Part shown: one piece after another, positions 51,837 to 59,762 of the stretch | Numbering within the stretch: the first letter of the stretch is position 1 | Layout: each line of letters opens with the position of its first letter | DNA from: an uncultured Flavobacteriaceae bacterium | GTDB lineage: Bacteria > Bacteroidota > Bacteroidia > Flavobacteriales > Flavobacteriaceae | NCBI GenBank assembly: GCA_947497245.1 | Contig: CANMFO010000002.1 | Location: forward strand, 1,116,001 to 1,180,000 | Direction of reading: 5' to 3' | Length of the DNA stretch: 64,000 bases | The notes under the pieces: generated by a model | Told to the model about the DNA's origin: nothing | The model's database searches: none | What the model saw: the letters and a program-made list of their open reading frames with translations, nothing else | Program-made: the position numbers and the translations under genes

Positions 51837-52739
51837 TCAATTCGAGACCGACATTTGGTTCTCTTTTTTGTTTTTCGAGGGGGAGTTCATTCCCAGTTCG
51901 GGAATGACAAGCAATGGAATCTGCGTATGGAAGGCCACGCGCTTGATCACGGGTTCGCGGGTCATTTTTTCCATATAACTGTGTTGGTAATTGAGCATGG
52001 CAAGTAGGTGGATATCCAACTCCTTGGAAAAAACTTCCAAGGTTTTTGAGACGGAGTTTAGTTCAGAGACCGTATGCACATAATAGGGTACCGTATCAAG
52101 GTATTTTCGGAGCATGCTTAAGTTGAATTGCTGTAATTCGGTCAGGGCCTTGATTTCGTACTGTACATGCACGATACGAACATTGGCCCCAAAGGCATGT
52201 GCCAGGTTGATCATCGGCTGTAGTTCCGATTGGGTATAAAATCTGTTAAAATCGGTTGCAAAGCCGATTTCCGTGGGAGCGGTAAATTCGAAATGCTGTG
52301 GAATGGCGAGCACCGGACAGTTTTTTATCGATTTGATGATACGGACGGTATTGCTTCCCATGAACACTTCTTCTAGGCCTGAAGCTCCTTTGGTACCCGT
52401 AATTATGAGTTCGATCCCCTCTTCCTCGACCACGGATTTGATTTCGTCCACCAATAGGCTAAAGGAAGAAATGGTCCTGTAGTTTTGGTTGGCATAGGTG
52501 TACCGTTTCCGAATCTGACCAACGAGCATTTCAAGCCCACGCAAGGAAGCGGCATGTGCCCCATCTTCAAGCTGTCCCCCATTTAAACTGGCGGCCATAA
52601 AGCGGCTGCTCGCTATGGCCGGGGTGTAAACGTTCAGGAAATGCAAGGTGCACTCTTCTTCTTTGAACAGTTCTATCGCGTATTGGGCCGCGTTCCAAGC
52701 ATTTTCCGAAAAGTCTGTGGGTATCAATATATTTTTCAT
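51837..52739 (-). CDS. Universal stress protein, tandem UspA domains
   Basis: 300 residues from the ATG at 52739 (an ATG two codons earlier, 52745, is equally possible). Two UspA folds in tandem. The first keeps the ATP-binding pattern G-x2-G-x9-G-S in ITGTKGASGLEEVFMGSNT; the second (residues about 160-290) has no such loop and is probably non-binding. Soluble. In Bacteroidetes such genes often respond to oxygen limitation. An FNR-type box (52793-52804) lies 29.5 bases from its -7 element, and the fnr-like gene is its direct neighbour. Confidence 0.9.
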   Translation of the reverse strand: MKNILIPTDFSENAWNAAQYAIELFKEEECTLHFLNVYTPAIASSRFMAASLNGGQLEDGAHAASLRGLEMLVGQIRKRYTYANQNYRTISSFSLLVDEIKSVVEEEGIELIITGTKGASGLEEVFMGSNTVRIIKSIKNCPVLAIPQHFEFTAPTEIGFATDFNRFYTQSELQPMINLAHAFGANVRIVHVQYEIKALTELQQFNLSMLRKYLDTVPYYVHTVSELNSVSKTLEVFSKELDIHLLAMLNYQHSYMEKMTREPVIKRVAFHTQIPLLVIPELGMNSPSKNKKENQMSVSN

Positions 52740-52761
52740 GCTCATGTCTATACGAATGGCG

Positions 52762-52769
52762 TAAAATTA
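52762..52769 (-). promoter_or_regulatory. -7 element of the usp promoter
   Basis: TAATTTTA on the minus strand, one base from TAnnTTTG, 22 bases upstream of the usp start. No TTG lies at the -33 distance. Confidence 0.5.
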
Positions 52770-52792
52770 GTAAGGGGAAAAAGGGAAAACTA

Positions 52793-52804
52793 TGACTTAT
52801 GTCA
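52793..52804. promoter_or_regulatory. FNR-type box upstream of usp
   Basis: Perfect palindrome TGAC-TTAT-GTCA. Its centre (52798.5) is 29.5 bases from the first base of the usp -7 element, which would put it near -41 from transcription start, the class II activator position. Confidence 0.7.
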
Positions 52805-52959
52805 GGTTTCCGGTTCGCTATGGTGTTTGGCGGGGGGGAATCATGGGGGCAAGGGCTACGGACTGGTTCGGGAAAGGCTTTTTTATCCAAGGGCAGCGGT
52901 CCACATAACAGGTATTGAATTGGGTCGGCCCGTCCAAAGCGACGACCTTATGGTTTCGG

Positions 52960-53649
52960 TCAAAACCCTTCTGCCAAATCCAACAACTTCCTTTCGTCGG
53001 CGATGCCTATCTTCTTTCCAGATGCTTTTAACAACCCTTTTTTCTTGAACTCTGAAATAATGCGGATACAAGATTCGGTAGCGGTGCCGACCACATTGGA
53101 AATATCTTCCCGAGAGAGCGTAAGATGGAGAAAACCGTCCGGATCTTCCCCAAAATTGTTCTTGAGGTAGAGAAAAGCCTCGGCGACCCTTTGTTTGACA
53201 CTTTTTTGGGACATATTCACGATCACATCGTCGGCTTCCTTAAGGTCGTGCGCCATGTGTCGCAGTACTTCAACGGCAAATGCGGGATTGGTGTTCAGGG
53301 TATTTACAATGTTCTCTTTGGGGATGAAACAGACTTCCATGTCGTTCACGGCAACGGCGCTCAGGTTGGTCGATTCTTCGGTAATCACCGATCGCTGTCC
53401 GATGACCTCTCCTTTGGTGGCCAACTTTACAATCTGATCTTTGCCGTTGGCACTGAGCTTGGAAAGTTTTGAAATTCCATCACGGACACAGAAAACCCCA
53501 TCGAGTTTTTCACCTTCCTCGAAAAGGGCCTCGCCCTTTTTAATGGTTTTGGTGACCTTGGAGTCGGAAACTTTTTTCAGTTCCTCTTTACTCATGGCCC
53601 GTAGGGAATTGAACTGACGGATAATACAATTTTCACATCTGCTTTCCAT
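52960..53649 (-). CDS. fnr: FNR-like Crp-family regulator of respiration
   Basis: 229 residues. N-terminal CENCIIRQFNSL gives a CxxC pair near residues 5-8; a cyclic-nucleotide-binding-like beta roll follows (KKGEALFEEGEKLDGVFCVRDG), then a helix-turn-helix LTLSREDISNVVGTATESCIRII whose recognition helix keeps the Glu and Arg of FNR. More cysteines occur at VFCV and VCFI, but the full four-Cys set of E. coli FNR is not obvious, so oxygen sensing by an iron-sulfur cluster is possible, not proven. It is divergent from ccoI across a shared FNR-type box; it probably controls itself, the cbb3 genes and usp. Confidence 0.88.
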   Translation of the reverse strand: MESRCENCIIRQFNSLRAMSKEELKKVSDSKVTKTIKKGEALFEEGEKLDGVFCVRDGISKLSKLSANGKDQIVKLATKGEVIGQRSVITEESTNLSAVAVNDMEVCFIPKENIVNTLNTNPAFAVEVLRHMAHDLKEADDVIVNMSQKSVKQRVAEAFLYLKNNFGEDPDGFLHLTLSREDISNVVGTATESCIRIISEFKKKGLLKASGKKIGIADERKLLDLAEGF

Positions 53650-53673
53650 ACCTTAAATTTATACCTGATACCG

Positions 53674-53681
53674 CAAAGGTA
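53674..53681 (-). promoter_or_regulatory. -7 element of the fnr-like gene
   Basis: TACCTTTG on the minus strand, full TAnnTTTG match, 24 bases upstream of the ATG and 29.5 bases from the centre of the box at 53705-53716. Confidence 0.6.
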
Positions 53682-53704
53682 ATAGTATTAAAATGGTCAA
53701 AACC

Positions 53705-53716
53705 TGATTTATATCA
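53705..53716. promoter_or_regulatory. Shared FNR-type box between fnr and ccoI
   Basis: Perfect palindrome TGAT-TTAT-ATCA, the E. coli FNR core. It is centred 29.5 bases from the -7 element of fnr on one side (53681) and 29.5 bases from a CATCTTTG element of ccoI on the other (53740), so one bound dimer could serve both directions. Confidence 0.75.
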
Positions 53717-53739
53717 TATTTTTGAAAAACCATCATCGA

Positions 53740-53747
53740 CATCTTTG
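53740..53747 (+). promoter_or_regulatory. -7 element of ccoI
   Basis: CATCTTTG, one base from TAnnTTTG, 20 bases upstream of the ccoI ATG. A second TATTTTTG at 53717-53724 is also a consensus match but would abut the FNR box. Confidence 0.45.
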
Positions 53748-53767
53748 CATTCAGGTAGAGTAAGTAA

Positions 53768-56170
53768 ATGTGTATGGAAACGACCGAATGTTACCATTGT
53801 GGGGACGACTGCGGTACGGCACCTATAATCTTCGATGAAAAGAACTTTTGCTGTCATGGCTGCAAGACTGTCTTTGATATTTTTTCAAGCAACGATCTGT
53901 CCTACTATTATGATTTGCAATCGGCTGCTGGAGCCAGTCCGCAGGCGATTGAAGGAAAGTACGATTTTCTCGGTTCTCCTGCTATTGTTGAAAGGCTGAC
54001 CGAGTTCAACGATGGGGACATGCAGGTGGTAAACCTCTATATTCCCCACATTCATTGTAGTTCCTGTATATGGGTATTGGAAAACCTGAACAAGTTGAAT
54101 CCGTCTGTGAGCGGATCCCAGGTCAACTTCCCCAAGAAAACGGTTCGTATTACCTATAGTAGCTCCAGTATAGCCCTAAAGGAACTGGTCGTGCTACTGG
54201 CACGTATTGGCTATGAGCCCTACATTTCGCTGGATGATTACGACAACCCCAAAAAAAAGGTCGACCGGAGCCTCATCTATAAACTGGGTGTTGCCGGATT
54301 TGCATTTGGCAACGTAATGTTTCTTTCCTTTCCCGAATATTTTGATCTGGCCAGCAGTGGCCGCGACGGAGGGGAGTTCTGGTTGAACCATTATCAAGGG
54401 CTTTTCCGTTGGCTGATGTTCGCTTTTTCGTTGCCCGTGGTTTTCTACGCGGGTCAGGGCTATTTTCTATCCGCCTTTAAAGGACTTCGGGCCAGGATGT
54501 TGAACATCGATGTGCCCATCGCTCTTGGTATTTCGGTACTCTTTCTGAGAAGTACCATCGAAATTGTCTTCGATTGGGGCCCAGGTTTTTTTGACAGTTT
54601 GACCGGATTGGTCTTTTTCCTGTTGCTGGGCAAGTTTTTCCAACAAAAAACCTATTCCTTTTTGTCGTTCGAACGGGATTATAAATCCTATTTCCCCATT
54701 GCCGTTACCCGTATGACATCAGCGGGAAAAGAGGAGACCGCGCAAGTCCATGATATAGAGAGGGGAGATCGGTTATTGATCAGAAATGGCGAATTGATCC
54801 CCGTGGATGGTATCCTTATCAAGGGCAATGCGCGGATCGACTACAGTTTTGTTACGGGCGAATCGGAGCCTGTGCGGAAAATATTGGGCGACAAGCTTTT
54901 TGCGGGAGGAAAACAATTGGGGGGTGTTTTGGAAATGGAGGTGGTGAAATCGGTTTCCCAAAGCTATTTGACCCAGTTGTGGAGCAACACCATTTTTCGT
55001 GAAGGGGCGTCCAGCAAGTTCCAGACCCTTACCGATGGTATTGGCAAACGGTTTACGATAGCCGTACTTTCCATCGCCTTTGCCGCTACCGCTTTTTGGC
55101 TGTTTTATGATAGCACCATGGCCATGAACGTATTCACGGCAGTGTTGATCATTGCCTGTCCATGTGCCATTGCCCTCGCCGCTCCCTTCACCCTGGGCAA
55201 TATGCTTCGGATTTTCGGCCGTAAAAAGTGTTATTTGAAAAGCAGTCAGACCATTGAGCAATTGGCACAGGTCGATACGGCCATTTTTGATAAAACCGGA
55301 ACCTTGACCACTACCACGGGCAATGTGGCCAGTTACCAGGGCATGGCCCTGACATCCGAAGAAGAATCCCTCCTGAAGAACACCCTCCGGGCTTCCAACC
55401 ATCCCTTGAGCCGCACCTTGTACGAAATGTTGTCGGAGCAGCAGATAATGACCTTGGACGATTATACAGAGCATTTGGGAAAGGGAGTGGAGGGCTCCAA
55501 GGACAACAACTATATAAAAATAGGGTCGGCGGATTTTGTAGGGAACGGTCAGGAGACGGACGCGCTGAACACTGCGGTTCATATTGGAAGCAATACGGGA
55601 TATAAGGGGCAATATGTGTTCCACAACCAATACCGGGAAGGGGTTTCCGATCTGTTCCGGACGATGTCCGAAACCTTGAAGTTGGCCATTTTGTCCGGTG
55701 ACAACGAAGGGGAGAAGGCCCATTTGGAAAAATTGTTGCCCAAGCTCACGCCGCTTTACTTCGATCAAAAGCCCGAAGGGAAGCTCCAATTTATTAAATC
55801 GCTACAGGAACAGGGCAGTAAGGTGATGATGGTCGGTGATGGTCTCAATGATGCCGGTGCCCTTGCCCAGAGTGATGTGGGCATCGCCATTTCGGAGAAC
55901 GTGAACGTATTTTCCCCGGCTTGTGATGGAATTTTGGACGCTTCAAAATTTCAACAGCTCTATCAGTACATCCTGGCCTCGCGGAAGGCGATGAAAATTA
56001 TCAAAATGAGTTTCGTACTTTCCCTGTTGTACAATGTCGTTGGACTTTATTTTGCGGTGACCGGACAATTGGAGCCGGTTATAGCGGCCATTTTGATGCC
56101 GTTGAGTTCCATAAGCATTGTGGTGTTCACCACGGTGATGACCAATATATTGGGAAGGAAGTTGAAATAG
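53768..56170 (+). CDS. ccoI: Copper-transporting P-type ATPase for cbb3 oxidase assembly (CcoI/FixI)
   Basis: 800 residues (a second ATG two codons in is possible). It supplies copper for the CuB centre of cbb3 oxidase. N-terminal cysteine-rich metal domain (CYHCGDDCG, FCCHGCKTVF) of the FixI type, an HMA-like domain with HCSSCIW near residue 97, eight membrane helices, the ion-binding CPC in IACPCAIALA (near 462), phosphorylation motif DKTGTLT (near 507) and hinge GDGLNDAGAL. First gene of the cco locus, divergent from fnr over a shared box. Confidence 0.95.
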   Translation: MCMETTECYHCGDDCGTAPIIFDEKNFCCHGCKTVFDIFSSNDLSYYYDLQSAAGASPQAIEGKYDFLGSPAIVERLTEFNDGDMQVVNLYIPHIHCSSCIWVLENLNKLNPSVSGSQVNFPKKTVRITYSSSSIALKELVVLLARIGYEPYISLDDYDNPKKKVDRSLIYKLGVAGFAFGNVMFLSFPEYFDLASSGRDGGEFWLNHYQGLFRWLMFAFSLPVVFYAGQGYFLSAFKGLRARMLNIDVPIALGISVLFLRSTIEIVFDWGPGFFDSLTGLVFFLLLGKFFQQKTYSFLSFERDYKSYFPIAVTRMTSAGKEETAQVHDIERGDRLLIRNGELIPVDGILIKGNARIDYSFVTGESEPVRKILGDKLFAGGKQLGGVLEMEVVKSVSQSYLTQLWSNTIFREGASSKFQTLTDGIGKRFTIAVLSIAFAATAFWLFYDSTMAMNVFTAVLIIACPCAIALAAPFTLGNMLRIFGRKKCYLKSSQTIEQLAQVDTAIFDKTGTLTTTTGNVASYQGMALTSEEESLLKNTLRASNHPLSRTLYEMLSEQQIMTLDDYTEHLGKGVEGSKDNNYIKIGSADFVGNGQETDALNTAVHIGSNTGYKGQYVFHNQYREGVSDLFRTMSETLKLAILSGDNEGEKAHLEKLLPKLTPLYFDQKPEGKLQFIKSLQEQGSKVMMVGDGLNDAGALAQSDVGIAISENVNVFSPACDGILDASKFQQLYQYILASRKAMKIIKMSFVLSLLYNVVGLYFAVTGQLEPVIAAILMPLSSISIVVFTTVMTNILGRKLK

Positions 56171-56189
56171 AAAAATAAAACCTGGAACA

Positions 56190-56201
56190 TGACATATGTC
56201 A
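56190..56201. promoter_or_regulatory. FNR-type box upstream of ccoS
   Basis: Perfect palindrome TGAC-ATAT-GTCA in the 81-base gap after ccoI. Centre 56195.5 is 29.5 bases from TAGTTTTA at 56225-56232. It would let ccoS-NO-Q-P be transcribed separately from ccoI. Confidence 0.72.
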
Positions 56202-56224
56202 TTTCCCAGGGCAGGTTGCAAATG

Positions 56225-56232
56225 TAGTTTTA
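56225..56232 (+). promoter_or_regulatory. -7 element of ccoS
   Basis: TAGTTTTA, one base from TAnnTTTG, 19 bases upstream of the ccoS ATG; no TTG at the -33 distance. Confidence 0.5.
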
Positions 56233-56251: not shown

Positions 56252-56479
56252 ATGAGCGTTATTTATGTGTTATTGGCCATCAGCATTATAGTCGCGGTCC
56301 TTTTTTTCACGGCCTTTATCATAGCGGTCAGAAACGGCCAGTACGATGATGCCTATACCCCTTCCGTTCGCATGTTGTTCGAAGACGAACTGGTCAAGGA
56401 AAAACCAGGCCCGGACAGCCCCCCAAAGAACAAATCGAAAGAGCAAAAGAAAGTCATCCAACCAAATAAACAAGAGTAG
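56252..56479 (+). CDS. ccoS: cbb3 oxidase assembly protein CcoS
   Basis: 75 residues: one membrane helix (VIYVLLAISIIVAVLFFTAFI) followed by AVRNGQYDDAYTPSVRMLFE, the GQYDD block that marks CcoS, and a charged tail. CcoS is needed for heme and copper insertion into CcoN. Sits between ccoI and ccoNO, 2 bases before the latter. Confidence 0.93.
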   Translation: MSVIYVLLAISIIVAVLFFTAFIIAVRNGQYDDAYTPSVRMLFEDELVKEKPGPDSPPKNKSKEQKKVIQPNKQE

Positions 56480-56481
56480 TT

Positions 56482-58683
56482 ATGGAAGTACAGCAGTTTT
56501 ATTACGACAACAAGATCGTAAAAAAGTTCCTCTATGCAACAATGCTTTGGGGAATCGTGGGAATGTCGGTTGGCCTGTTATTGGCCTTCATGTTCATGTT
56601 CCCCAACCTGACCGATGGCATATCCTGGTTGAGTTTCGGGCGCCTGAGGCCGTTGCACACCAATGCCGTGATCTTTGCCTTTGTGGGCAACGCCATTTTT
56701 GCAGGGGTCTATTATTCCACCCAACGCCTGTTGAAGGCGCGGATGTTCAGCGACTTTTTGAGCCAGTTTAATTTTTGGGGCTGGCAGGCCATCATTGTTG
56801 CAGCGGCGATTACCTTGCCTTTGGGGTATACCACATCCAAGGAATATGCCGAATTGGAGTGGCCCATAGATATTGCCATTGCCCTGGTTTGGGTAGCTTT
56901 TGGGGTCAATTTGATCGGTACCATGATCAAAAGGAGACAACGTCATTTGTATGTGGCCATCTGGTTCTATGTCGCGACCTTTGTGACCGTTGCGGTACTC
57001 CACATCTTCAACAGCTTGGAACTTCCCGTAAGCGCACTGAAAAGTTATTCGGTCTACGCAGGGGTTCAGGATGCCCTGGTGCAATGGTGGTACGGACATA
57101 ATGCCGTGGCGTTCTTTTTAACCACGCCCTTTCTCGGTCTGATGTACTATTTCGTGCCAAAGGCGGCGAACAGGCCCATTTATTCATATCGGCTGTCCAT
57201 CGTCCACTTTTGGTCCTTGATATTTATTTACATCTGGGCCGGACCACACCATTTGCTGTATTCCACATTGCCCGACTGGGCCCAGAATTTAGGGGTGGCT
57301 TTCTCCGTTATGCTTATAGCCCCTTCCTGGGGAGGGATGATCAACGGATTATTGACCCTTCGCGGGGCCTGGGACAAGGTGCGGACCGACCCCACACTAA
57401 AATTCATGGTTGTGGCGATAACGGGCTACGGTATGGCCACTTTTGAGGGGCCTATGCTTTCCCTGAAAAATGTCAATGCCATTGCCCATTTCAGCGACTG
57501 GATCATCGCGCACGTCCATGTGGGTGCTTTGGCTTGGAATGGTTTTCTGACCTTCGGGATGATCTATTGGTTGGTGCCGAAAATGTTCAAGACGCGCCTG
57601 GCATCGGTGGGCTTGGCCAATTTTCATTTCTGGATAGGCACCTTGGGAATCATTTTGTACGCGCTGCCGATGTATGTGGCCGGTTTTACACAGGCCTTGA
57701 TGTGGAAGGATTTCAACCCCGATGGCACCCTGGTGTACGGGAACTTCCTGGAAACGGTCAATGAGATCATGCCCATGTACTGGATGCGGGCCATTGGTGG
57801 AAGCCTTTATATCATCGGGGCCTGCGTGATGATCTATAACGTAGTGGTCACCATTCGATCGGGAAGCAAGGTCGAGGACGAATTGGCGGAGGCCGCAGCC
57901 CTGACCCGGGTATCGAAAAGGAGGACCGTAGGGGAAACGTTCCACACCTGGTTGGAACGCAAGCCCATACAGTTGACCATTCTGGCCACAGTCGCCATCT
58001 TGATCGGGGGAATCATCCAAATCGTACCCACGATCTTGGTCAAGTCCAATATCCCCACCATCAGCAGCGTTACCCCCTATACTCCGCTGGAACTGGAGGG
58101 AAGGGACCTCTATATCCGGGAAGGTTGTGTGGGGTGCCATTCACAAATGGTACGTCCATTCCGTAGCGAGGTGGAACGTTATGGCGAGTATGCCAAAGCG
58201 GGAGAATTCGTGTACGATCATCCCTTTTTATGGGGGAGCAAGCGCACAGGCCCGGACCTTTTGCGGGTGGGTGGCAAATATTCCGACAACTGGCACTTGA
58301 ACCATATGTACGATCCCCAAAGCACCTCTTCCGGTTCCATAATGCCTGCCTATCAATGGTTGGTGCGCGATGCGCACGACCGTAGCGCGATAAGGGACAA
58401 GATGGAAGCCATGGTAAGTCTGGGCGTACCCTATACAGAGGAAGACATTGCCAATGCCGATCGATCTATGGCGGAACAAGCGGAGCAAATAGAAAAAAAC
58501 CTATACACTGACCCTGATTTCGCAAAAGGGTATGAAGCCGATAAAAAGTACGCCGCGGAAAACGGGCAGCCCTTTGTGGAAATGAAGGACCGTGAGATCG
58601 TTGCTTTGATCGCCTATCTGCAGCGTTTGGGAACGGATATCAAAATAAAGGGCGGTAACGAATCAATTTCACAAAACCAATAG
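56482..58683 (+). CDS. ccoNO: Fused cbb3 cytochrome c oxidase subunits I and II (CcoN-CcoO)
   Basis: 733 residues. Residues 1 to about 480 are CcoN: twelve membrane helices with the heme and CuB histidines, including LHTNAVIFAF, WYGHNAVAFFLT and the CuB pair WAGPHHLLYSTLPDW. After a helix near 500 the CcoO domain has a single c-type heme site REGCVGCHSQMVRPFRSE (near 548) and GSIMPAYQWL with the axial Met. Fusion of the two subunits is a known Bacteroidetes feature. The complex reduces O2 to water with high affinity and pumps protons. Confidence 0.95.
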   Translation: MEVQQFYYDNKIVKKFLYATMLWGIVGMSVGLLLAFMFMFPNLTDGISWLSFGRLRPLHTNAVIFAFVGNAIFAGVYYSTQRLLKARMFSDFLSQFNFWGWQAIIVAAAITLPLGYTTSKEYAELEWPIDIAIALVWVAFGVNLIGTMIKRRQRHLYVAIWFYVATFVTVAVLHIFNSLELPVSALKSYSVYAGVQDALVQWWYGHNAVAFFLTTPFLGLMYYFVPKAANRPIYSYRLSIVHFWSLIFIYIWAGPHHLLYSTLPDWAQNLGVAFSVMLIAPSWGGMINGLLTLRGAWDKVRTDPTLKFMVVAITGYGMATFEGPMLSLKNVNAIAHFSDWIIAHVHVGALAWNGFLTFGMIYWLVPKMFKTRLASVGLANFHFWIGTLGIILYALPMYVAGFTQALMWKDFNPDGTLVYGNFLETVNEIMPMYWMRAIGGSLYIIGACVMIYNVVVTIRSGSKVEDELAEAAALTRVSKRRTVGETFHTWLERKPIQLTILATVAILIGGIIQIVPTILVKSNIPTISSVTPYTPLELEGRDLYIREGCVGCHSQMVRPFRSEVERYGEYAKAGEFVYDHPFLWGSKRTGPDLLRVGGKYSDNWHLNHMYDPQSTSSGSIMPAYQWLVRDAHDRSAIRDKMEAMVSLGVPYTEEDIANADRSMAEQAEQIEKNLYTDPDFAKGYEADKKYAAENGQPFVEMKDREIVALIAYLQRLGTDIKIKGGNESISQNQ

Positions 58684-58686
58684 GCC

Positions 58687-58878
58687 ATGCTAAAATTTGT
58701 AAAAGGATATATGGAAAGTATCGAAGGGGTCGCCACCTATCCCATGATATCACTGTTGATCTTCTTCGTGTTCTTCGCGGTGCTGTTCTGGTGGGTACTG
58801 ACCGCTTCAAAAGCGCATATCAAAGAAGTAAGTGAACTACCATTGGAAAAAGATAACCAACAAAATTTCGAACTATGA
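58687..58878 (+). CDS. ccoQ: cbb3 oxidase subunit CcoQ
   Basis: 63 residues: one membrane helix (MISLLIFFVFFAVLFWWVLT) and a short polar tail (SKAHIKEVSELPLEKD). The size and place between ccoNO and ccoP identify it as CcoQ, which stabilises the complex. Overlaps ccoP by four bases (ATGA). Confidence 0.88.
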   Translation: MLKFVKGYMESIEGVATYPMISLLIFFVFFAVLFWWVLTASKAHIKEVSELPLEKDNQQNFEL

Positions 58879-59762
58879 AAAACAGATCAACTTGGTGGAT
58901 AAGGGTCCCCGTATTACTTTTCCTTATTTGGGGAATGATGGAGTACTTTATAGACTCCGGAGAAAAACCGGCGATAATTGAATACCCAGCTGCCCAGTTC
59001 TTTATGCTGATGGTGTTTCTATTGCTGATCGCCATAGAACTGATTCTCCAATCCGTGGAAAACGTAATGTTCCACACGCTGTCGGAGGAGGCCAAAGAAC
59101 GGTATTTGGCTTCGAAATCCAAATCTTGGGAATGGTCCTGGGGCAAAAATACCTACAAAAAGCTCTTGGGCTCAAAACCTATGGAAGCTGAGGGCGAGAT
59201 CATCCTCGACCACAACTACGACGGCATACGCGAACTCGACAATAAATTGCCCCCCTGGTGGGTCTATATGTTCTATGCGACGATTATATTTGGGGTCGTG
59301 TATTTGGTCCGGTTCCACGTTTTCAACGATTATGACCAGGATTCGGAATATGAACGAGAGGTCGCAGCTGCCCAATTGGAGATCGAGGCCTATAAAAAAA
59401 CGGCAAAAGATCTTGTAGATGCAAATACCGTTGCGCTTTTGACCGAGGCAGCCGACATTAATGCGGGCAAGGCCATTTACGAGACCAATTGCGTCGCCTG
59501 CCATATGGCCGATGGAGGGGGCGGTATTGGCCCCAACCTCACCGATGACCACTGGATTTTGGGTGGGGGCATCAAAAATGTTTTCAGCACGGTTTCCGAA
59601 GGAGGGCGTGATGGGAAAGGAATGGTCGCCTGGAAGCAGATATTGAAACCTGTCGAAATGGCACAGGTGTCTAGCTATATTTTAATCGAGATCCAAGGAA
59701 AAACCCCGGCCAATCCCAAGGCCGCGGAAGGCGATGTTTGGGAAGAATCCGATACACCCTAA
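58875..59762 (+). CDS. ccoP: cbb3 oxidase c-type cytochrome subunit CcoP (single heme)
   Basis: 295 residues. Two N-terminal membrane helices, the CcoP_N block ELDNKLPPWWVYMFYATIIFGVVYL (in parts), then one cytochrome c domain with CVACHMADGGGGIGPNL (heme site near residue 205) and GMVAWKQIL with the axial Met. Only one CxxCH is present, whereas proteobacterial CcoP has two; so electrons enter through a monoheme subunit. The following 200-base gap (59763-59962) shows no gene or clear terminator. Confidence 0.93.
   Translation: MKNRSTWWIRVPVLLFLIWGMMEYFIDSGEKPAIIEYPAAQFFMLMVFLLLIAIELILQSVENVMFHTLSEEAKERYLASKSKSWEWSWGKNTYKKLLGSKPMEAEGEIILDHNYDGIRELDNKLPPWWVYMFYATIIFGVVYLVRFHVFNDYDQDSEYEREVAAAQLEIEAYKKTAKDLVDANTVALLTEAADINAGKAIYETNCVACHMADGGGGIGPNLTDDHWILGGGIKNVFSTVSEGGRDGKGMVAWKQILKPVEMAQVSSYILIEIQGKTPANPKAAEGDVWEESDTP

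Follow-up and report, generated by a model that had tools for sequence, protein, structure and literature searches.

At class II FNR/CRP-dependent promoters of Escherichia coli, FNR sits at −41.5, and class I sites further upstream are used as well. In rhizobia, low-oxygen control runs through the FixL-FixJ-FixK cascade, in which the receiver-LuxR-type FixJ and the stand-alone FixK are separate proteins and a His and an Arg of FixL contact haem. To our knowledge, activator-dependent promoters have received little study with the Bacteroidetes sigma factor. In a study of Flavobacterium psychrophilum, the −7 box TAnnTTTG of sigma-A promoters is mapped at −12 to −5, and the cbb3 oxidase is up at oxygen limitation (PMC9723704).

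Here, we analysed a 64-kb stretch of the genome of an uncultured flavobacterium (hereafter, the window) in which a cbb3 oxidase operon, a copper-type ATPase gene, a gene for an FNR-type regulator and a universal stress protein gene lie next to each other. Their promoters carry palindromic boxes of the form TGAYN4RTCA, followed at a gap of 23 bases (29.5 bases from the box centre to the first base of the element) by sequences resembling TAnnTTTG. The features are as follows.

51837..52745 (−): usp, universal stress protein gene (open reading frame; Pfam Usp, E = 6.5e-25)
52762..52769 (−): −7 element of usp, TAATTTTA; at least a 5/6 match at gap 23 in 76/78 named loci in which usp was found
52793-52804 (−): regulator box of usp, TGACTTATGTCA, centre 52798.5; kept in 76/78 named loci
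52960..53649 (−): fnr, FNR-type Crp/Fnr regulator, 229 aa (Pfam cNMP_binding and HTH_Crp_2)
53674..53681 (−): −7 element of fnr, TACCTTTG
53705-53716 (unstranded): box common to fnr and ccoI, TGATTTATATCA, centre 53710.5; in 26/30 family loci
53740..53747 (+): −7 element of ccoI, CATCTTTG, first T replaced
53768..56170 (+): ccoI, heavy-metal/copper-type P-ATPase (NCBIfam P-type ATPase models; named from type and place)
56190-56201 (+): box of ccoS-ccoNO-ccoQ-ccoP, TGACATATGTCA, centre 56195.5; in 75/75 named loci in which ccoS was found
56225..56232 (+): −7 element of the ccoS operon, TAGTTTTA
56252..56479 (+): ccoS (Pfam FixS, E = 1.2e-18)
56482..58683 (+): ccoNO fusion, cbb3 oxidase subunits I/II (NCBIfam PRK14485, ccoN and ccoO above cut-off)
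58687..58878 (+): short open reading frame where ccoQ would be expected, the name being based on position alone
58875..59762 (+): ccoP-like open reading frame with a CxxCH haem motif (translation; named from sequence and place)

The three palindromes and their centres, and all four 29.5-base distances at usp, fnr, ccoI and ccoS, are exactly as the original prediction gave them. Three of the elements are degenerate, the one of ccoI lacking the first T and those of ccoS and usp the final G of TAnnTTTG. The prediction had also allowed for about four boxes by chance in a sequence of this size, which is a fair estimate: TGAYN4RTCA occurs 8 times in the window and 407 times in the 5.25-Mb genome, or about 5 times per 64 kb, so that the box count alone is no evidence. 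The combined pattern TGAYN4RTCA-N23-NAnnTTTN is found exactly four times in the window, always at the usp, fnr, ccoI and ccoS promoters, compared with a mean of 0.05 and a maximum of 1 in 100 first-order Markov resamples. This element pattern was relaxed post hoc, and independent tests therefore weigh more.

The genome-wide distance test that the original prediction had proposed was run with the strict element (TGAYN4RTCA plus TAnnTTTG, gaps of 8-38 bases), and the peak falls at the 29.5-base spacing. In the organism's own genome, gap 23 accounts for 13 of 26 matches (binomial p = 2.9e-13 for the preset gap). Across 60 genomes of the family, it accounts for 478 of 1102 matches, compared with 20.8 per other gap (a 23-fold excess over the mean), and the excess is still 9-fold in 28 genomes from the rest of the class (91/386 matches). 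Genomes from other classes show a weak peak (58/867). Among the 150 matches listed for 8 family genomes, the last of them covered in part, gap 23 was found 68 times, gap 24 15 times, gap 22 five times and every other gap at most 6 times. Gaps of 39-69 bases yielded 610 matches in the 60 genomes (19.7 per gap), and the 95 of these matches that were listed and tallied contained no comparable peak at a further-upstream (class I) position, the most frequent gaps being 66 (9 matches) and 60 (8 matches); a weak second box position may nevertheless exist further upstream. The sequences thus support the predicted single, fixed placement of the box with respect to the Bacteroidetes −7 element, and this arrangement, repeated in the sequences of dozens of relatives, very likely represents a shared switch.

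The upstream promoter element is poor at gap-23 sites, as expected of class II activated promoters. A TTG ending at −33, −32 or −31 occurs in only 1 of 70 such sites (every site listed for the 8 family genomes), in agreement with the earlier remark that a good TTG is lacking at the usual −33 distance. G is present at −32 in 4 of these 70 sites and in 3 of the 13 own-genome sites, and T is present at −33 in 43/70 and at −32 in 48/70; the T-rich stretch is weaker here than in a set of 78 family sites, which was hand-picked and hence biased. With the −7 box at −12 to −5, as mapped in another flavobacterium, F. psychrophilum (PMC9723704), the 29.5-base spacing would put the box centre at −41.5, the class II position.

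Orthologous promoters, compared at 75-80 named loci for each gene, retain the box and its gap while the spacer sequences diverge, with 66-73 distinct spacers per gene. Only 1 locus in this set had more than one candidate box, so that choosing the best box added little. The ccoS element is TAGTTTTA in 62/75 named loci and matches at least 5 of 6 positions in 75/75. The middle box, which had been described as serving fnr and ccoI symmetrically, does so in closer relatives, where, of 80 named loci, 63 have a fitting element at gap 23 on the fnr side and 79 have one on the ccoI side (13 of 76 fnr boxes are without a good element at this gap), but not across the family, where it fits the ccoI side in 25 and the fnr side in only 5 of 30 loci. 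The proposed single regulon of usp, fnr, ccoI and ccoS has the support of one common promoter code, but this code is not limited to the four promoters: gap-23 or near-match sites also precede hemN, OmpW, DnaJ and usp-like genes, and another lies ahead of a small cytochrome-c-like gene, itself upstream of nosZ. Judging by these genes, we infer that the regulon responds to low oxygen.

Both the FNR-type protein of the window and a response regulator whose gene lies about 37 kb further along the genome match PF00027 and PF13545 above the cut-offs, which places them in the Crp/Fnr superfamily. The FNR-type protein matches the solved 'FNR type regulator' chains 5e44/9qlt, which we take to be from Aliivibrio fischeri (E = 4.1e-24, aligned along residues 4-226), and reaches 109.1 bits with the NCBIfam Fnr model, below its cut-off of 228. 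It has cysteines at positions 5, 8, 54 and 107, all invariant in 117/117 orthologues, and a recognition helix reading GTATESCIR. Cys5, Cys8 and Cys107 align with FNR cysteines (the N-terminal CxxC and the central Cys). The third N-terminal Cys of E. coli FNR is Cys29; the corresponding position here is Asn14, with Asn in 114/117 orthologues. The protein accordingly does not have the E. coli-type set of three N-terminal cysteines and a central one, and its fourth invariant cysteine, Cys54, lies elsewhere. A structure model bearing on whether Cys54 is near the other cysteines was poor (mean pLDDT 61.9, pTM 0.43). The protein is probably an Fe-S oxygen sensor with Cys5, Cys8, Cys54 and Cys107 as ligands. 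Its recognition helix has the form E-x-x-I-R in 117/117 orthologues, instead of the E-x-x-S-R of the E. coli type.

The response regulator (350 aa) is a fusion of a receiver and a Crp/Fnr output in one protein, as defined by Pfam. Its E-x-x-I-R helix is the same as that of the FNR-type protein and recurs in all 11 response regulators read; full-length versions are encoded in 25 of the 60 family genomes. The gene itself sits within a run of gap-23-type sites, beside the gene of a PAS kinase. This kinase qualifies as FixL-like in that its PAS domain aligns to FixL with the His and Arg in register and HisKA/HATPase domains are recognized by Pfam. Both residues are invariant in 5 aligned kinases, and the kinase would carry a haem cofactor.

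Taken together, we consider it quite likely that the four sites serve a low-oxygen regulon as activator boxes, at which the Bacteroidetes housekeeping sigma factor is subject to class II activation. The recognition helices of a Crp/Fnr dimer would read TGAY...RTCA through Glu192 and Arg196. The dimer would be centred at −41.5, replacing a weak or absent −33 element, and would contact RNA polymerase next to the sigma-bound −7 box TAnnTTTG. The geometry is rigid: gap 23 dominates, gap 24 forms a small shoulder, and the gaps tallied further upstream showed no other position. Two possible readers are present here, the neighbouring FNR-type protein and the receiver-Crp/Fnr response regulator.

Three other explanations can be envisioned. 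Chance, or the picking of degenerate −7 elements by eye, would be compatible with the abundance of boxes in the genome and with the deviations from TAnnTTTG at usp, ccoI and ccoS; we reject this explanation, to which we attach next to no probability, in view of the strict-element peak in the whole genome and 60 relatives and of the same spacing at orthologous promoters. Alternatively, the box could be a repressor site overlapping the promoter, the fixed distance reflecting blockage of polymerase and not activation. The box does cover the −33 region, where a bound protein could block polymerase, and fnr could plausibly be autorepressed at loci whose fnr side is without a spaced −7 element. A repressor, however, would not depend on one exact distance, whereas gap 23 is predominant; the −33 TTG is almost absent from the sites, as activator-dependent promoters would show; and several targets are genes for low-oxygen respiration and haem synthesis. 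We regard this explanation as very improbable.

The explanation that comes closest to the preferred one, although it is still unlikely, keeps the activation and changes the activator: the response regulator, phosphorylated by the FixL-like kinase, would be the sole activator, with FNR a bystander or tuning its own divergent promoter. Consistent with this, the 11 family genomes with the response regulator and no close FNR orthologue contain 94 gap-23 sites, compared with 3.5 per other gap, and 10 of the 11 keep box and gap at the cco promoter; the location of the response regulator gene in a run of such sites points the same way. Conversely, the 23 genomes with FNR and without the response regulator also peak (161 versus 8.9 per other gap), fnr adjoins ccoI in 80/80 named and 29/30 family loci, and the FNR helix is invariant. 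The original prediction of an FNR-like activator is supported by sequence as far as a Crp/Fnr-type DNA reader is concerned, but a single FNR is probably not the whole story, given a response regulator with the same helix and genomes that keep the architecture with the response regulator and without a close FNR orthologue. These same genomes hold other Crp/Fnr proteins, which remain candidate readers, including an FNR-like one with E-x-x-I-R in G036.

The number of gap-23 sites per genome follows the regulators, averaging 14.5 with both, 7.0 with FNR only, 8.5 with the response regulator only and 1.7 with neither. The association is confounded by genome content, because most of the 12 genomes with neither are small and 10 of them have no cbb3 oxidase. 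These 12 still contain 20 gap-23 sites, compared with 2.6 per other gap; G048, a metagenome-assembled genome that is 82% complete, accounts for 9 of the 20, and more distant FNR-like proteins are encoded in G020, G043 and G051. As far as sequence comparison goes, two different kinds of sensor appear able to read the same box. Under a broader model, to which we give an even chance, TGAYN4RTCA-23-TAnnTTTG would be read interchangeably throughout the class by two unlike oxygen sensors with a common recognition helix, namely an FNR with a relocated Fe-S ligand (Cys54 instead of the third N-terminal Cys) and a protein, driven by FixL, that unites the functions of FixJ and FixK, with lineages swapping or combining sensors while the promoters stay unchanged.

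So sharp a code would allow low-oxygen regulons to be predicted solely from sequence in a family that is large and common. It also lends itself to testing class II activation with a −7/−33 promoter and provides a natural example of promoters that may receive input from different oxygen sensors, and the prediction for Cys54 makes it possible to test directly whether a relative of FNR uses an alternative set of Fe-S ligands. Among open-licence papers, we found no title or abstract describing the spacing or the receiver-Crp/FixL pair in Bacteroidetes, which is weak evidence of novelty. The sigma-A promoters of F. psychrophilum share the −7 box TAnnTTTG, but no activator box or spacing is described in the available part of that study, and 'fnr' and 'crp' do not appear in its main text (PMC9723704).

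Compared with FNR, the protein of the window is alike in the N-terminal CxxC and the central Cys and differs in Asn14 in place of the third N-terminal Cys, the extra Cys54 and the helix. The promoters resemble the class II promoters of E. coli in the expected −41.5 centre, the box in place of the upstream promoter element, the TGA...TCA core and the Glu/Arg recognition helix. By contrast, the partner here is the Bacteroidetes −7 box TAnnTTTG and not the sigma-70 −10 element, and a single position is seen, whereas E. coli has class I sites too. With the rhizobial FixL-FixJ-FixK cascade, the system shares a FixL-type PAS domain, a Crp/Fnr-like output and cbb3 genes as candidate targets. Instead of a separate FixJ and FixK, however, receiver and Crp/Fnr output form a single 350-aa protein, so that the two steps of FixJ and FixK would merge into one.

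The three TGAY-N4-RTCA palindromes (boxes) and the four elements resembling the -7 consensus TAnnTTTG, whose first bases lie 29.5 bases from the box centres, agree in coordinates and letters with the original prediction, and this observation emerges much strengthened. The boxes alone are ordinary, since there are 8 in the 64-kb window and 407 in the 5.25-Mb genome. With the element relaxed to NAnnTTTN to accommodate the four promoters, box and element separated by 23 bases (gap 23, equivalent to 29.5 bases from the centre) occur four times in the window, only at usp, fnr, ccoI and ccoS, compared with a mean of 0.05 and a maximum of 1 in 100 Markov resamples. Because this pattern was relaxed to suit these promoters, we put weight on tests that are independent of them.

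Scans with the strict TAnnTTTG at gaps 8 to 38 revealed the genome-wide peak on which the prediction had been staked: 13 of the 26 matches in the genome itself fall at gap 23, the others being spread across the remaining 30 gaps (binomial p 2.9e-13 for this preset gap). Twelve of these 13 sites lie outside any open reading frame (ORF) of at least 100 aa, and the 13th (L005) falls within the upstream extension of its own downstream ORF; at site L011, the 300 bases examined contain no ORF of 60 aa that begins with ATG. Across 60 genomes of the family, gap 23 holds 478 of 1,102 matches, versus 20.8 per other gap, and gaps 39 to 69 contain 610 matches (19.7 per gap), with no comparable peak in the 95 rows tallied. 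Among the matches listed for eight family genomes (only some of those of the eighth), gap 23 accounts for 68 of 150 and gap 22 for 5; gap 24 forms a small shoulder on the main peak (15 of 150). In a scan of 198 genomes from the phylum, gap 23 is enriched 18-fold within the family (173 of 458 matches, 19 genomes). The enrichment is 9-fold both in other members of the order (16 of 68, 2 genomes) and in other members of the class (91 of 386, 28 genomes), and 2.2-fold in the remaining 149 genomes (58 of 867).

FNR and CRP classically activate class II promoters from -41.5. In Flavobacterium psychrophilum, the -7 box occupies -12 to -5 (PMC9723704); a first T at -12 therefore places a box centre 29.5 bases upstream at -41.5. 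Among the matches listed for eight genomes, just 1 of 70 gap-23 sites has a TTG whose last base is at -33, -32 or -31 and 4 of 70 have a G at -32 (3 of 13 in the genome itself), a T-rich TnTT standing in place of TTG. Judged by sequence, this is how activator-dependent promoters would be expected to look.

The arrangement is rigid in 80 loci from closer relatives (Pelagihabitans, Maribacter, Zobellia, Muricauda/Flagellimonas and others). A box lies at most 220 bases upstream of fnr in 76 of 80 and of ccoI in all 80 and, where the gene was found, of ccoS in 75 of 75 and of usp in 76 of 78; a single locus has more than one box. An element matching at least five of the six letters of TAnnTTTG sits at gap 23 in 63 (fnr), 79 (ccoI), 75 (ccoS) and 76 (usp) loci, and the mean match is highest there (about 5.0-5.3 of 6), compared with at most 3.2 at the other gaps between 10 and 39. 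Spacer length is constant despite divergent spacer sequence: there are 73, 69, 66 and 67 different spacers for fnr, ccoI, ccoS and usp, with mean column conservation of 0.53-0.64, while the box reaches 0.93-0.96 and the -7 element 0.88-1.00. Departures from the consensus are also kept:

53740-53747, ccoI -7 element, lacking the first T of TAnnTTTG
52762-52769 and 56225-56232, usp and ccoS -7 elements, ending in A rather than G (TTTA)

In most of these relatives, the ccoI element is CAnnTTTG, that of ccoS is TAGTTTTA and that of usp is TAATTTTA; the TTTA ending is present in all 76 usp elements and in 73 of the 75 from ccoS. Among 30 more diverse Flavobacteriaceae loci, ccoI adjoins fnr in 29 and a box is present in 26; the element fits at gap 23 on the ccoI side in 25 of 30 and on the fnr side in 5 of 30, and symmetric use of the box is therefore a feature of closer relatives. 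Of the 25 ccoI elements that fit, just 2 have a T in the first position, and its general lack perhaps holds this promoter off when the activator is absent.

Which regulator reads these boxes has two candidate answers. The product of 52960-53649 (FNR) is a Crp/Fnr protein, its best PDB matches being the Crp/Fnr-family regulator 2gau (2.1e-24) and chains labelled 'FNR type regulator' (4.1e-24). In its helix G-T-A-T-E-S-C-I-R, the Glu and Arg, which we take to be the readers of TGA/TCA, are unchanged in 117 of 117 orthologues. Cys 5, 8, 54 and 107 are likewise present in all 117, and the position of the third N-terminal Cys of E. coli-type FNR is Asn in 114. A third FNR-like type, with helix GTTEEQVIR (L154, L155 and L164, from genomes G036, G051 and G017), has three N-terminal Cys, Phe at 54 and the central Cys in two of three proteins (His in L155). 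These patterns suggest that Cys54 may replace the lost third N-terminal ligand. The pattern is not strictly either-or, as two proteins (L152 and L153) combine CxxC, Cys54 and Cys107 with one extra N-terminal Cys.

The other candidate is encoded past the window end, beside a FixL-like kinase:

C2:1205176-1207533 (L058:9176-11533), PAS histidine kinase, then receiver-Crp/Fnr fusion

This 350-aa response regulator has receiver, cNMP-type and Crp HTH domains, and its helix G-M-A-T-E-T-L-I-R shares E-x-x-I-R with FNR, a motif found in 11 of 11 response regulators read (six of them aligned). The kinase PAS domain matches FixL (E about 1e-10). The alignment places in register a His and an Arg that presumably correspond to those with haem roles in FixL; both are unchanged in five of five kinases aligned. 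Boxes flank the pair on both sides. Full-length response regulator relatives occur in 25 of the 60 family genomes and close FNR orthologues (best hit E < 1e-60) in 37. Gap-23 sites average 14.5 per genome with both regulators (14 genomes), 7.0 with FNR only (23), 8.5 with the response regulator only (11) and 1.7 with neither (12). The last group, mostly small genomes, still has 20 gap-23 sites versus 2.6 at each other gap; the incomplete MAG G048 alone contributes 9 of the 20. A cbb3 oxidase is encoded in 11 of 11 response-regulator-only genomes and in 2 of 12 with neither (G048 and G020). Box and gap-23 element precede the cco operon in 10 of these 11, as well as in G048 and G020, so the promoter is kept where a close FNR orthologue is absent; upstream of the G040 cco operon, such a box and element were not found. 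As a caution, further Crp/Fnr proteins are present in the response-regulator-only genomes, one in G036 with E-x-x-I-R.

Beyond the four promoters, strict gap-23 sites in the genome lie upstream of hemN (above the NCBIfam cut-off), a small cytochrome-c-like gene (whose NCBIfam hits do not reach the cut-off) and genes for OmpW, DnaJ, an Alginate_exp-type protein, a LytTR response regulator and a usp-like protein, with near-match sites upstream of more usp-like genes. Some distance behind the cytochrome-c-like gene is nosZ (above the NCBIfam cut-off):

C2:1183024-1189637 (L057), nosZ, Sec-dependent nitrous oxide reductase, with the cytochrome-c-like gene ahead

The box of the cytochrome-c-like gene has an Rrf2-type regulator gene on its other side, pointing away from it; the TAnnTTTG of this regulator gene is at gap 29 rather than 23. 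Nearby, a 598-aa ORF (C2:1180383-1182179; L057:1383-3179) without a Pfam or NCBIfam match is preceded by a box whose gap-23 element is weaker. The predicted targets fit low-oxygen respiration and haem synthesis, with a stress-protein component. The interpretation originally proposed was right at its core, but it considered too few regulators and claimed too much for fnr. Judged by the openly licensed literature searched, three things appear new: how rigid and widespread the promoter code is, the altered Cys set of FNR and, on sequence grounds, the two sensor types that could share this code; the component parts of the code and its candidate sensors are of known kinds.
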